Under the pieces are notes generated by a model. That model was not told the origin of the DNA. It worked only from the letters and a program-made list of their open reading frames with translations, and did no database searches. A stretch of DNA of 64,000 bases, from contig NZ_CP100445.1 of the NCBI RefSeq assembly GCF_024227435.1, positions 2,539,369 through 2,603,368 on the forward strand. Reading direction: 5' to 3'. Below are positions 55,214 to 61,885 of the stretch, piece after piece. This DNA is from Natrinema caseinilyticum. Lineage in GTDB: Archaea > Halobacteriota > Halobacteria > Halobacteriales > Natrialbaceae. Positions within the stretch are counted from its first letter, which is position 1; every line of letters begins with the position of its first letter. The position numbers and the translations under genes are program-made.

Positions 55214-56228
55214 CTCTCTCAGTCGTTTCGCTGGCCGACTCGGTGAATCGTCCCGAACGATCTCCTGACCGAGACCTGTCCACTCGTGACATCATGTCCA
55301 TCATATTTTTCAGTTGCTTTTCTCGTCTTGCACATCTCCACGTCTGATCGACTGGTCGGTACTCCAATAGGTCTCGAGGAAGGATCTCAGCTACAGAAAC
55401 GCCCGTCCCGGCGTCGTCGAACCGTGACCTCTCACAGTCCGGACATTCGTTAGACTGTTCCGACGGGTATCGTCCGGAATTCTGTTCCGCCACGGCTACC
55501 AGATCACGGACTCCCGCGGCGGCCGTGCAGGGACGATATCGGCTCAACTTTCGATGAAAGACGAGACGCTGTCGGAGGCTACGGGCGGAGAAGGGTGAGT
55601 GCCTCCCGGTCCTGGCCCGAACGAGAGACGGTGTTACACCGACGTCAGTCTCTGTCGTCGCTACCGAACTGGAAAGGCCACTCTCTCCCCCGTTTCTGAC
55701 GCGGAGACGGTGATTTCGGATCGATTATCGCACGGTCGCAACGACCGTGGTCGGTGCATACTTCCACCCGACCAATTTCGACGACGAAAACGCCGAGGAG
55801 TGGTTGCCGAAAGACGGCTCCGTTTCCGAGATCGAGACCGCCGAACGAGTCCGGATAGTGCCACCGCTCCTCCATTTCGGTTGTGCAATCGCACTTCCGT
55901 TCGCACTCGATGGTCACACGGCCGGTCGCGCTCGAGTCGCTCGACCGCGGCAATCGTCAGGATCGCACTGCACGCTTCACGGGTCGTCTCACCCTGCGTG
56001 CGAAAGATCCCGTGGCGGGTGTCGCCAGGGCGACAGCACCACAAATCACAGCGCCCACCTCCTCCCTCCGTACGCCGATCTCCAGTTACTCCAAATAGAG
56101 CGGGTTCGATCACCTCGTAATTTGGGAGCTCAGTGTTCACTGTCGGACGAGTATCTCACAGGGGTTCCCAGCCCTCCGACGGTCGATAAACCGACCACCC
56201 CGTTTCGACGGAAGGCGGCCACTTTTCG
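55214..56228. other. Long region without a confident gene
   Basis: About 1 kb. A minus-strand frame at 55206-55547 contains ECPDCERSRFDD and WRCARREKQLKNMM and might be a small zinc-binding protein, but codon pattern is weak. The plus frame from 55747 starts plausibly (MVGAYFHPTNFDDENAEEW) and then degenerates. I regard the stretch as spacer or decayed DNA. Confidence 0.4.
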
Positions 56229-57080
56229 TCAGTACTGCCGGACCAGATACACGACGGTCGCGAGCCAGACGGCTCCGGCAAAGGCGTAGATCGCGTCACC
56301 GGGAGGGTTCTCCGAACCGAACTGTGTCGCCGACAGCACGTACGTCAGGACGGCAACGACGAGCGGGCTGCCGACATACGGCAACCAGTTCGTCCTCGAG
56401 TTCGGATCCGACGTGTCGTTCGCTCGCGCATCGCGAACGAGGACTGCAGGGGTGATTATCGATGCGACGGTCAGGAGTACGACTAGTCCGAACCCGATGG
56501 CGAAGACGAGGCTCCCTTCCGGTCCTCCCGCGATACCAGTCCAGATGAGGTACGCGAACGCGATCGGTACCGTCGCGGCGTACCCGACGAGAACTGTCGG
56601 CCAGACTACGGAGCCCTCGGTTTTTGCTTCGAGCCAGCCGACGAAATCCGGTGCGAGTGGATACGACCAGGCGCTGCCGAATATTGCTTTGCCCGTGGCG
56701 ATGAGCCCAAATGCGAAGTTAATCAGGACCACGGACGTACACACGAAAACGCCCACTGCAAAAACGAGGAGAAACACCGTCCCGATCTGTCGTAATGGCG
56801 TGTTTTCTGGGGCCCACGATTCGAACGCCAGTCCAGTAGCGAACGTTCCGAACAGGACGGCGAACGTTCCGGTAATCAGTAGCTGCCAGTTGAACGCATT
56901 TCGGGCGTTTTCTCGCGTGAAGTCGCGTTTCGCTACCAGGTAGACGACTGCTGGGAGGACAACCCCGGTTCCCAGGCCCAGCAGGTGGACGAAGATTCCG
57001 CTCAGGGTTCGTTCAGTCAAGAGGTCCGGTCCCGGTTGTGTCTGTGCATCGGTCGATGTGGATCGGTGTTCGTTGGACAT
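56229..57080 (-). CDS. DUF4870-type membrane protein
   Basis: 283 residues, longer than typical DUF4870 (about 110-180). After a hydrophilic N-terminus of about 25 residues comes the family core, GIFVHLLGLGTGVVLPAVVY with FTRENARNAFNWQ between the first two helices, distantly like Tic20. Additional helices (AFAYLIWTGIAGG, FAIGFGLVVLLTVASIITPA, PLVVAVLTYVLSATQF) extend it to about seven membrane passes. Function unknown; possibly membrane homeostasis. Confidence 0.75.
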   Translation of the reverse strand: MSNEHRSTSTDAQTQPGPDLLTERTLSGIFVHLLGLGTGVVLPAVVYLVAKRDFTRENARNAFNWQLLITGTFAVLFGTFATGLAFESWAPENTPLRQIGTVFLLVFAVGVFVCTSVVLINFAFGLIATGKAIFGSAWSYPLAPDFVGWLEAKTEGSVVWPTVLVGYAATVPIAFAYLIWTGIAGGPEGSLVFAIGFGLVVLLTVASIITPAVLVRDARANDTSDPNSRTNWLPYVGSPLVVAVLTYVLSATQFGSENPPGDAIYAFAGAVWLATVVYLVRQY

Positions 57081-57152
57081 CGGTGCGTAACGTTCGGTTC
57101 GTTCGTGTGACCGTGATGGGCAGCAGGCGGCTTATCGATCGGTTCGTCGGCG

Positions 57153-57755
57153 TTACCTGGAGCGGATGCGTTCGGGAAGGACGCGCTTCGTTGCCCCTCT
57201 TTTAGTTCGGATCATTCTCGCCAGTCGCTCGGCGAGCAACAGGGCCAAACACATCACGAAGAGGTTTCCACCGGCTTCCCAGTACCCGTTCGTACTCTGC
57301 ACGGGTGGGTCGCCTAACACGACGGGCGCGAGGATCCCGATGGCAAAGAGGACGAGCGTCAACTGAAACCCCGCGAGCACCAGCGTTCGGATGCCGGCCG
57401 GATTTCGAAGGCGAACGAAATCGCTGACGGAGAGGGTTTCGAGCGGCGTCTCGAACGCGAGTGCGTCTTTCCCTTCGGGCGAAAGTGGCCAGTTCGACTC
57501 CGGGTGGTTGATGTAGTACAGCGTGATCGACTCCGGATACGTGTCGGCGGCGACCACGTCCCGCTCGCGGAGTTCGTTCAGTCGGAGACGAACCGTCTCT
57601 TTGCTCACGTCCGGGCGGACTCGAGCGCAAATCTGCTCGGCCGAGAAGTACGGCCGCTCGGCCTCGAGCATCGTCTCGACGACGTGGCGCTGCGTGAGCT
57701 TTTTGTCGAGAGTGTGTTCGATCCGGTTCTCGATCCAGGGCGGAAGCGTGGACAT
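57153..57755 (-). CDS. Winged-helix domain with two C-terminal membrane helices
   Basis: 200 residues. The N-terminal winged helix (KLTQRHVVETMLEAERPYFS, recognition part VSKETVRLRLNELRERDVV) is followed by a short linker and two hydrophobic helices, TLVLAGFQLTLVLFAIGILA and LFVMCLALLLAERLARMI, then a basic end. Membrane-tethered regulators of this shape are common but poorly studied in haloarchaea. ATG 57755 gives MSTLPPWIENRIEHTL; the longer frame upstream looks non-coding. It is transcribed in the same direction as, and upstream in position of, no obvious target. Confidence 0.75.
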   Translation of the reverse strand: MSTLPPWIENRIEHTLDKKLTQRHVVETMLEAERPYFSAEQICARVRPDVSKETVRLRLNELRERDVVAADTYPESITLYYINHPESNWPLSPEGKDALAFETPLETLSVSDFVRLRNPAGIRTLVLAGFQLTLVLFAIGILAPVVLGDPPVQSTNGYWEAGGNLFVMCLALLLAERLARMIRTKRGATKRVLPERIRSR

Positions 57756-58319
57756 CGTGTCAGTGATCACACCGTGATTGTGGGGGGAGTTAAACCCACA
57801 TCCGAATTTGGCGGGCACCAAATCGGTTCGGAGCGGGGAACACGAGCAGTTCAGTGGCCGATCACGATATCGGCACTCGAAACGGTCCAGTTCATCCGGT
57901 CGCGTCACTGGTGGAAGCAGTTCCGGGAGAGCAGTCCCGCTTGTGCCCCCATTCGAGACCGTTGTGGACGGAGCGTCCATTTCACGTAGTTATCGTGACG
58001 TTCGGCCACTCTCCACGTGAACGGAAGACGTAATGGATCGGTTCGACCACCCCCTCGAGTTGCACGTCGATAGAATCCGGTTTCCGAACACGCACACGAA
58101 CTTCGACCTATCGTGTACGAATCTCGAGTCGGCCGATCACTCGATTCGCCGTTCGCCGTCGACCGTCCGACACGATCCGTTCACGTGACGCCAAAATGGA
58201 CCGCTCGGTGGGCCACGAACCCGGGATTCGGCGGCCGCGTGTCCGAGTATCCGAACCCGTGTGCGGTAGATTCGGCGTGATCGGCCGTCGAGACCCTCGC
58301 TGAGCAGCGCTCGAGTGCG
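57756..58319. other. Intergenic region, no gene seen
   Basis: About 560 bases with only short shadow frames. The part just upstream of 57755 is AT-richer and may hold the promoter of the membrane winged-helix gene. Confidence 0.5.
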
Positions 58320-58505
58320 TCAGCGAGTCCGTTCCTGTGCGGCCGCACGGGTGGTATCGACCCGCTCGAACAGTTCGATCGTGGCCTCGATGTTTTTGAT
58401 CGACGGCCGCATCGTGATCGGTTCGGGGAGTTCCCTGTCGAGCGTCTTCACCTCGCCGAGAACCTCCTCGAGGCGAACCCGTGTGAACTGGTGGCTATCG
58501 GTCAC
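58320..58505 (-). CDS. Hypothetical small helical protein, 61 residues
   Basis: GTG 58505 starts MTDSHQFTRVRLEEVLGEVK; almost every codon ends in G or C and the residue mix (acidic, Leu/Val/Ile spaced for helices) is protein-like. There are no known motifs. It is isolated between two empty regions, which lowers confidence, but no competing frame is as good. Confidence 0.5.
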   Translation of the reverse strand: MTDSHQFTRVRLEEVLGEVKTLDRELPEPITMRPSIKNIEATIELFERVDTTRAAAQERTR

Positions 58506-59328
58506 GTGTGATCTCCCTCCGCGTGTCGGTCACCGGTCGTGTGCGTCTTCCAGTCGGTCGTGGACCGGCCTCGTGTGGAACGATAAAACCACGCAGCAGG
58601 CGCTCTCGGGACGTTTTATCGGCCTCAGCTTCCGAAATTCTTTCGTAGGGTCGTGTGTGAGTATACATTGTCCTCAATTGGTGCGAGGACACGGGTCGGG
58701 TGCTCCTACACCCGGCCGACTTCATTCATTCGGCCATCCCGCGCCTCTAATTTAGCTGATTAGGATCGGTTACTTATAGCTTACTGAACACCTCGCGGAC
58801 CTCCGATGCGGACAGTGCGGGGAGATCGCTGCTCCCGTGCCAGCGGAGCGCGGAGGATCTGCAGTGAGCGCGCCGTGCGCCTGAACGGTTTCGCCACCGC
58901 CAGCGCTTTCGACGCCGTCCGTCGGTATCCTGGAACGGTCCACCCCGTCGATTTTGCGGGCAGACTCGCTCGTGGGTGCCTCCTATCGGCACTCCTCGTG
59001 ATCGAAGGTCGCTCGAGACACGACACGGATCGTCTCACCGCTCTTCGACGAAAGAAGAAATCGGAGACGACATTCGCCACGTTGCGGTGGAGACGGCCCG
59101 AATACGCAGCAGACGTGATTACCGAAATGAATCTGATAAAAATAACGCTCTGGGGAAGTACAATACATAGCGTAATTTACACAATTTTCATTCTTCCAGG
59201 TAGCATAGTGTGGTCGAAGTAGAAGGGCCAATAACGACGATTTCCGGCGGATGAGCCCGCGCGGATACCGACGTTGAAACGGGATTAACCCACCTATAGT
59301 AACTGATCCAACACGCTGGACGTGAGGC
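58506..59328. other. Intergenic region, no gene seen
   Basis: About 820 bases. A minus-strand frame ending LPALSASEVREVFSKL looks locally protein-like but its upstream part is Arg-rich and unconvincing. The final 150 bases are AT-rich and include a likely promoter (CACCTATAGTAAC near 59290) for the Tat-signal gene at 59329. Confidence 0.45.
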
Positions 59329-59411
59329 ATGCGGAATTTCAAGCGACGGAACGTCCTCGGTGCGACCGGGTTCGTTCTCGGTGGTGGTTTGTTCGTTGAT
59401 GGATCCTTCGC
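59329..59411 (+). pseudogene. 5' fragment (Tat signal) of a beta-propeller gene split by an IS
   Basis: The frame encodes NFKRRNVLGATGFVLGGGLF, a twin-arginine export signal, then VDGSF, where the IS6-type element is inserted. With the IS in place translation runs a few codons into the element and stops (FAVLFR then TAA). Joined to 60118-61885, after removing the IS and one 8-bp duplicate, the frame is continuous for 617 codons including the stop. Confidence 0.85.
59404..59411. repeat. Target-site duplication, left copy
   Basis: TCCTTCGC at 59404-59411 is repeated exactly at 60110-60117, on the other side of the IS. Eight bases is the duplication length expected for the IS6 family. Confidence 0.85.
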
Positions 59412-60109
59412 GGTGCTGTTCAGATAAGGCTGAAGGAGTGAGGCGTGGCGTTTTCAAAGTGATTCATGCCCGAAAACGCACGCCTCAGTCCTAGTATCGG
59501 CCAGTTCGACTTGGATTTTGTGGAGCGAGAAGCAACACCGCGGCTGTTGATGAAGCTCAGTATTCAGCTCCATCTTGCTGGACTCTCGCTTTCGAATACT
59601 GTTCGTGTTCTCGAGATATTCGGTGTTGAACGGGCTCGATCGACGATTCATAACTGGGTTCACAAGGCAGATCTACAGCCCGATTCCTGTCGAAGCCCGG
59701 ATCACGTTGCAGTTGACGAGACGGTGATCCGGCTTGACGATGAACAGTATTGGCTGTACGCCGCTGTCGATCCAGAGTCAAACGAATTACTCCATACAAA
59801 GCTTGAACCGACGAGAAATAAGGTCATAGCCAGTACATTCTTCACGGAATTACGCGAGAAACACGATGTCGATGACGCTGTGTTTCTCGTTGATGGGGAT
59901 AAATCACTGAACTACGCCTGTCAACGGCATGGCCTCGATTTCAGATACGAACGACATGGAAATCGGAACAGTGTCAAACGTGTCTTTCGGGAGATAAAAC
60001 GTCGAACCTCTTCTTTCTCAAACTGCTTTAGTAACGCTCACGCAGAAACTGCTGATCAGTGGCTCAGATCGTTCGCCTTCGCATGGAATCAGCTTATCTG
60101 AACACGATG
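59412..60109 (+). mobile_element. Intact IS6-family insertion sequence, 698 bp
   Basis: Bounded by imperfect 17-bp inverted repeats, GGTGCTGTTCAGATAAG (59412-59428) and its partner CTTATCTGAACACGATG (60093-60109); 13 of 17 positions pair, and the inner 12 are perfect. It contains one complete transposase gene and is flanked by an exact 8-bp duplication, so the insertion is recent. It interrupts a Tat-exported protein gene. Confidence 0.9.
59466..60101 (+). CDS. IS6-family transposase
   Basis: 211 residues, the compact haloarchaeal IS6 type. A helix-turn-helix is seen at LSLSNTVRVLEIFGVERARS. The DDE catalytic residues are visible as the first Asp in HVAVDETVIRLDDEQYWLYA, the second in VFLVDGDKSLNYA and the Glu in KRVFREIKRRTSS. 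The gene fills the element and ends inside the right inverted repeat. All parts look intact, so the element may be active. Confidence 0.93.
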   Translation: MPENARLSPSIGQFDLDFVEREATPRLLMKLSIQLHLAGLSLSNTVRVLEIFGVERARSTIHNWVHKADLQPDSCRSPDHVAVDETVIRLDDEQYWLYAAVDPESNELLHTKLEPTRNKVIASTFFTELREKHDVDDAVFLVDGDKSLNYACQRHGLDFRYERHGNRNSVKRVFREIKRRTSSFSNCFSNAHAETADQWLRSFAFAWNQLI

Positions 60110-61885
60110 TCCTTCGCGGGGTCCGAAACCATGGACGGCCCTGCCGCGAGTTGGCCCCAGCTCCAGTTCGACGCAGCTAATTCCGGAAACGCTGATACGT
60201 CCGGCCCGGCGAAACCCCTCCACACGGCGTGGCGGTTTCAGTCCGTCGGGGAATACGGTTGCGCCTCCGCACCCGCGATGGCGGACGACACGCTGTACTT
60301 CGTTTCGAACGACACCGGCGACGGCGGCACCGCCGACGGCGGTTACTCGGGAATCGTCCACGCAGTAGACGCTAGTGGGACCGAGCGTTGGCGTACCCGC
60401 ACGACGGTGGCACAGTCCTCACCTGCGGTCGCCGATGGGAACGTGTTCGTCGCCGGGCGCGGCGGTCCCCTCCTCGCGCTCGACGCCAGTACCGGCGACC
60501 AACGATGGTCGTTCGGCGACGCGAGTACCTTCGAGGGCTCGCCGACGGTCGCCGACGGAACCGTCTTTCTCGCTACCAGTGCGTCAGACGACGGACTCGT
60601 ATTCGCCCTGAACGCAGCAGATGGGACCGTCAAGTGGTCCGCTGGGGCTGACGTTCCCGGCAGTCCGATGGAGGTGACGGCCGTCGCCGTGGCGAACGAC
60701 GTCGCGTACTTCGGCGTCGGGACGGACGCCAGCGAGGGTGCGCTGTACGCAGTCGACGCCGAAACGGGCGACCGGCGCTGGCGTGTCGATTTCCCCCGGG
60801 TAGGCCGTCATCCCGGAAATCTCGCACCGCCAACGATCGGCAATGGACGGGTGTTTTTCGCCACGAATAACGCGCTGTTCGCGTTCGGATCGGACGGCAC
60901 CGAACAGTGGCGGGAGGAGATACGCGGATTCACGCCCCGCTTTTACACTGAACAATCGCCCGCCGTCGCTGACGGAGCGGTTTTCTTCCTCGACGGTGAC
61001 GGACTGATCGCCGTCGATGCTGCCACTGGCGGCCGTCTATGGCAGTTCGATCCCTCGAGCGTCACCGTTAGCAGTTCACCGGTGGTCGCCGACGGGACGC
61101 TTTACGTCGGGACGGAACAAGCGGGGATGTACGCACTCGATGCCACCACCGGCGACCCGGTAGGGCAGTGCCGACCGAGACCGGACGCGCGGGTTATCAC
61201 TCCACCAGCGGTAGTCGACGGAACAGCGTACGTCGGTGCCTTTTCCCGGACCGGGAACGCGGCTCTCGGGGTGACCGCGCTGGAAACCGGACGCGACGCC
61301 ACCGCCTCGGCAGAACCCACCGCGTCGTTCGCCGTCGTCCCCGACGAGATACTCCGTGAAATGCCCGTGCAGTTCGAAAACCAATCGGATGCGTTCGGCG
61401 ACTTCGACGCCGAGGCCGACGATGTCGAGTATCGCTGGGACTTCGACGGCGACGGGGCGGTCGAGCAGACGACGATGAATAAGGATCGACCTCTCGAGTA
61501 CACGTACGAGGAGAGCGGTCGCCACGAAGTGACGCTCACGGTGAGGAACTCGTACGGATGGACTGTCTCGACGACGAAGTCCGTCGAGGTTGCCGAGGAA
61601 CGCTACGAACCACCGACGGCTCGCATCGAGACGGAGCCACCGAACGCCGACGAGAAGACCTTGGAGGCCGGGGATACGGTGATTCTCGACGCTTCCGCGT
61701 CGTCGAACGGATCGCGGGATATCGTCTCCTACGAGTGGACGACCGACAGTTGTGAAACGTCGGCGGGCGAACGGATCAGCGTCGGTCTCCACGAACCGTG
61801 TGGTGAGTGGCGGGTTCGGCTCACGGTCACCGATGAACTCGGTGTGAGTACCGAAACGAGCATCGTACTGACGACCGGCACGTAA
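60107..61885 (+). CDS. PQQ-type beta-propeller protein with PKD domain, signal peptide lost to the IS
   Basis: 592 residues if translation begins at ATG 60107-60109, which is the last three bases of the IS right end and in frame; the next ATG is 60131. Residues about 20-400 carry repeated propeller blades (SSPAVADGNVFVAGRGG, LLALDASTGDQRWSF, SPVVADGTLYVGTEQ). A PKD domain (about 425-515, VEYRWDFDGDGAVEQ) and a final PKD-like domain follow. The ancestral protein was Tat-exported, so the present product would stay in the cytoplasm. The propeller may bind a polymer or act as a scaffold; no quinoprotein active-site disulfide is seen. Confidence 0.85.
   Translation: MSFAGSETMDGPAASWPQLQFDAANSGNADTSGPAKPLHTAWRFQSVGEYGCASAPAMADDTLYFVSNDTGDGGTADGGYSGIVHAVDASGTERWRTRTTVAQSSPAVADGNVFVAGRGGPLLALDASTGDQRWSFGDASTFEGSPTVADGTVFLATSASDDGLVFALNAADGTVKWSAGADVPGSPMEVTAVAVANDVAYFGVGTDASEGALYAVDAETGDRRWRVDFPRVGRHPGNLAPPTIGNGRVFFATNNALFAFGSDGTEQWREEIRGFTPRFYTEQSPAVADGAVFFLDGDGLIAVDAATGGRLWQFDPSSVTVSSSPVVADGTLYVGTEQAGMYALDATTGDPVGQCRPRPDARVITPPAVVDGTAYVGAFSRTGNAALGVTALETGRDATASAEPTASFAVVPDEILREMPVQFENQSDAFGDFDAEADDVEYRWDFDGDGAVEQTTMNKDRPLEYTYEESGRHEVTLTVRNSYGWTVSTTKSVEVAEERYEPPTARIETEPPNADEKTLEAGDTVILDASASSNGSRDIVSYEWTTDSCETSAGERISVGLHEPCGEWRVRLTVTDELGVSTETSIVLTTGT

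Follow-up and report, generated by a model that had tools for sequence, protein, structure and literature searches.

The described insertion sequences closest to the element reported here are ISH29, ISHarch14, ISNgar3 and ISNph1, which are 696-698 bp long, encode a 211-aa transposase, have 15/17-type terminal repeats and make an 8-bp target duplication (PMC6807381 Table 5). The element lies in what we call the window, the whole 64,000-nucleotide stretch of Natrinema caseinilyticum DNA that was analysed; it resembles this group in all of these respects and has about 81% DNA identity to ISH29, but is unlike the group in ending with CACGATG and in having a lysine in place of the catalytic glutamate. 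For ISHarch14, ISNgar3 and ISNph1 the same table lists GG/CA ends, implying a right end in TG. A second point of reference is gene activation by the bacterial elements IS26 and IS257, in which the end of the IS gives its neighbour an expression signal, as the window element would do at most; whereas IS26 and IS257 give a -35 promoter element, the contribution of the window element would be no more than a putative start codon. The gene that it interrupts is in turn like one of Halomicroarcula rubra F13 in having an RR leader, a propeller and PKD-type domains, the difference being that the Halomicroarcula gene has no IS and is intact.

The element and its boundaries comprise the following features.

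59412-60109, + strand (gene orientation): archaeal IS6-type insertion sequence, 698 bp (NCBIfam NF033587 transpos_IS6; copies elsewhere)
59404-59411, + strand: left target-site duplicate TCCTTCGC (direct repeat)
60110-60117, + strand: right target-site duplicate TCCTTCGC (direct repeat)
59417-59428, + strand: left subterminal inverted repeat TGTTCAGATAAG (12 bp, perfect)
60093-60104, + strand: right subterminal inverted repeat CTTATCTGAACA (12 bp, perfect)
59466-60101, + strand: transposase, 211 aa, with K171 at the catalytic Glu position (alignment of relatives; motif from PMC6807381)

The direct repeat, TCCTTCGC(GG), starts at 59404 and again at 60110, and positions 1-698 of the element are matched at 98.6% and 98.3% by two other copies that the genome has on contig C2, which confirms the ends at 59412 and 60109. 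The initial annotation, made from the letters of the sequence, had placed an IS6-type insertion at exactly these coordinates. One of the C2 copies has an exact 8-bp duplication of its own, GTCACGGT; the other, the near-identical copy at G000:C2:686335-687032 (L003), lacks a matching duplication, pointing to recombination or a rearrangement next to it once it had inserted. Besides its own genome, copies of the IS were found in 65 of 292 genomes of the class, and in many relatives, other genera included, 8-bp duplications lie outside identical boundaries. As to class, the element has the length, the 211-aa transposase, the terminal inverted repeats and the 8-bp duplication of an IS6-type element, and its transposase scores 196.9 bits against NCBIfam NF033587 transpos_IS6 (cut-off 125). 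Membership of IS6/IS26 in the strict sense of Harmer and Hall, which calls for an E-DH---K motif and for grouping with bacterial IS26, does not extend to it, since it has the archaeal E--F---K-R form that these authors place outside IS6/IS26.

The catalytic glutamate belongs to that E--F---K-R motif (PMC6807381), and it is this residue that the window copy appears to have lost. Alignment of the copies gives K at residue 171 in the window copy only, E in both C2 sister copies, and E in almost every relative alignable at that position; the E171K codon is at 59976-59978, IS position 565. Both aspartates of the DDE triad are present in the window copy and its third residue is K171, so that, as aligned, it is a defective IS6-type copy of a lineage that itself has the triad. 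Its transposase is probably inactive and the copy probably unable to transpose by itself; given E171K, it would be immobile unless another copy supplied transposase.

On either side of the element lie the parts of the interrupted gene.

59295-59303, + strand: TATA-like stretch tatagtaac, candidate native promoter (by eye; 26-34 nt upstream of the Tat-leader ATG)
59329-59427, + strand: severed 5' gene end, ATG plus twin-arginine leader (MRNFKRRNVLGATGFVLGGGLFVDGSFA) (sequence; aligned to the RR leader of the intact homologue)
60107-61885, + strand: possible N-terminally truncated product, 592 aa, a PQQ-type beta-propeller then two PKD-type domains, no hydrophobic leader (Pfam)

The insertion point is codon 28 of the gene, and the severed leader frame runs for 32 aa before it meets a TAA within the IS. 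Deletion of 59412-60117 (706 bp) leaves a single open frame, 617 codons long with the stop counted, which starts MRNFKRRNVLGATGFVLGGGLFVDGSFAGSETMDGP and begins with the twin-arginine leader MRNFKRRNVLGATGFVLGGGLFVDGSFA; the initial annotation had proposed this same joining of Tat signal and propeller. In the joined frame an RR motif is followed near the N-terminus by an uncharged stretch (KRRNVLGATGFVLGGGLFV), the motif of a Tat substrate, and the propeller part has Pfam matches to PQQ_2 (2.6e-41) and PKD_4 (1.2e-18). The TAT profiles of Pfam and NCBIfam gave no match for the window leader and matched the homologue L096 only below their cut-offs. Short TAT profile models miss many genuine signals. 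On the basis of the motif and of the RR leaders of its homologues, we regard the leader as a putative Tat export signal.

We consider it likely that a Tat-exported propeller gene was disrupted here by an IS6-type element, that the ATG at the tip of the element is coincidental, and that what remains is most probably a gene in decay. An ISH29-like element would have entered a PQQ-propeller/PKD gene by ordinary transposition, making an 8-bp duplication and coming to lie in the direction of that gene, and with the leader cut off inside the IS the exported protein would have been lost. A transcript running through the transposase gene might still allow a leaderless, cytoplasmic propeller to be made by termination-reinitiation, and the transposase of this copy would have been dead on arrival or have become so since, through E171K. 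Overall, the best reading is that the exported protein has been lost, and possibly that a remnant which stays in the cell is translated at a low level. As it stands, the locus is a clean, well-bounded gene disruption by an IS6-type element.

The age of the insertion was approached by polarising the differences among the three copies against six outgroup copies. Three clear changes (IS positions 324, 486 and 565) and one probable change (657) are private to the window copy, and because some of these may predate the insertion, they give a maximum for the divergence since then. With 3-4 changes in 698 bp, the 16 duplicated bases would remain intact with a probability of 0.91-0.93. It had been claimed that the exact 8-bp duplications show the event to be recent; the duplication is indeed exact, but as proof of recency it falls short, since about 90% would survive at 3-4 private changes. 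An unconstrained frame of 592 codons would likewise be stop-free with a probability of 0.74-0.80 at that divergence (stop mutations only, no indels). Both the intact duplication and the stop-free frame are thus expected and say little about age or constraint, and on these counts the age of the insertion is only loosely bounded.

The remaining feature of interest is the start codon at the right tip of the element.

60107-60109, + strand: ATG, the final three IS bases, in frame with the propeller and 5 nt after the transposase stop (sequence)

This ATG had already been read as the last three bases of the right end and in frame with the remainder of the gene, and so it is: the frame that it opens reads MSFAGSETMDGP, the stretch after the last part of the transposase that contains it is ACACGATG, and the right end is CTGAACACGATG in all three copies of this genome. 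Some haloarchaeal IS6 lineages end in ATG, a type of right end that occurs, independently of the propeller gene, at 36 sites spread over 19 of 391 genomes; with the same end in both sister copies as well, the ATG is a property of the IS lineage and not of the window insertion. Most of the sampled relatives have a different right end, most often ACACTACC, which is better paired with the left end than the ATG form is.

In Haloferax volcanii, reinitiation is efficient where genes overlap, drops at a distance of 13-14 nt and has nearly vanished by about 22 nt, and distances of -8 to +10 nt have been taken as predictive of coupling (PMC10666635). At +5 nt from the transposase stop the IS ATG falls inside this range, so termination-reinitiation there is possible, and a leaderless propeller made in this way is plausible, provided that the transposase gene is both transcribed and translated. 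On these data, the 38 nt that separate the end of the severed leader, at 59427, from the transposase ATG exceed the reach of coupling. A stronger claim would be that the IS ATG starts a cytoplasmic propeller/PKD protein in useful amounts and that this relocalised protein has been kept by selection. In its favour are the ATG in frame and just past the transposase stop, the shared direction of all parts, the spacing suited to reinitiation and a 592-codon propeller frame without an internal stop; the stop-free frame would also fit continued use, though, as calculated above, unconstrained frames would mostly be stop-free too, which makes the missing stops uninformative. PKD domains are moreover of extracytoplasmic type and would have no evident role inside the cell, and a frame match is to be expected in one third of cases. 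We therefore regard selection for a relocalised protein as unlikely. If the remnant were made, it would represent an insertion sequence changing the location of a protein by means of a start codon at its tip and short-range haloarchaeal reinitiation; the literature search, incomplete in its coverage, found no relevant precedent for insertion sequences supplying start codons.

Comparison with other ATG-ended copies bears on the same question. Among 31 such copies, the reading from the IS ATG stays open past 120 codons 7 times in frame 0, once in frame 1 and 4 times in frame 2, which is not significant (binomial about 0.07 for the frame-0 bias, a rough estimate), and three of the seven frame-0 cases are no more than upstream extensions of genes that begin farther in with a start codon of their own, for instance an ABC ATPase (L138) and an ArsR-like regulator (L149). 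The idea that the IS ATG preferentially meets open frames was rejected on these grounds. Other broken genes were judged where a perfect duplication allows rejoining. In two gene-breaking insertions (L135 and L146) the frame of the IS ATG does not match that of the gene. L152 (G190:C1:619335), which has a perfect duplication and its ATG in frame close to the beginning of a DUF1508 repeat gene, comes nearest to the insertion in the window. As frame 0 is not significantly favoured, the alignment of ATG and propeller looks like chance, a one-in-three outcome for a co-directional insertion, and not like adaptation. The suggestion in the initial annotation that the ATG could turn an exported protein into a cytoplasmic one is accordingly left unsupported by the 31 copies and by the other breaks, and on the frame statistics relocalisation, though possible, is not needed for the pattern seen. 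Improbable, too, is the broader idea of a haloarchaeal IS6 sublineage with a portable right-tip start codon 5 nt past the transposase stop, in which one third of same-direction insertions would yield a translationally coupled protein truncated at the N-terminus, in the present case deprived of export, and some of these would be kept. We also note a copy, L132 (G402:C1:122947), that ends in ATG, has a perfect duplication and directly precedes a small gene whose leader is of RR and lipobox-like type; here the IS ATG would put 16 residues ahead of the leader's own start.

Alternatively, a promoter formed at the right end of the IS might drive leaderless transcription of the remnant, hybrid promoters being frequent among the IS6 elements of bacteria (PMC7986276). 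No TATA-like stretch lies about 27 nt ahead of the IS ATG, where the sequence is ttcgcatggaatcag, and a sigma-70 promoter scan, a model that does not apply to archaea, returned nothing. To our knowledge, the -35/-10 hybrid promoters of bacteria do not apply to archaea either, and we hold a promoter at the IS end to be highly improbable.

The disruption that we favour presupposes that leader and propeller were once a single gene, and the strongest evidence for this is the uninterrupted homologue of Halomicroarcula rubra F13 (L161/L095), from another family of the order, which has 606 aa and an RR leader and is 56% identical over residues 6-613; it also lends weight to the 617-codon joined frame. 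A second, more distant full-length homologue (38% identity) aligns from residue 1 and again has an RR leader. Upstream of its ATG the Halomicroarcula rubra gene has 'cataggga', resembling the TATA-like stretch of the window, and 'ctggacg' is common to both. Searches of 28 other genomes from the genus of the window, a sample of one genome per species, gave no close homologue at strict or loose thresholds, the matches there being propeller paralogues of 30-46% identity. Contig scans gave no match with the truncated protein and, with the Halomicroarcula homologue as query, Halomicroarcula rubra plus weak others only. That the IS lies between two unrelated frames that join by accident would be in keeping with this lack of close congeneric homologues, but is barely credible, being largely refuted by a haloarchaeal homologue that aligns from RR leader to C-terminus without interruption and by the exact duplication at the break.

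An empty site was not found in two congeneric genomes, G023 keeping only the right flank (62322-66855) and G019 only the left (56226-57829), and by these alignments the gene is situated between stretches that are not conserved together. With the flanks conserved one at a time and no close homologue in the genus, the distribution of the gene is sporadic. Just upstream of it, about 490 bp of the window (58311-58804) match several places in the same genome, among them C1:1418503-1419021 (80%), C1:2639270 and C1:1691882, and also congeneric genomes; translated pieces of this stretch matched no Pfam family. A further dispersed stretch of about 200 bp (58050-58256) recurs, whole or in part and at about 66-88% identity, in many places in congeneric genomes.
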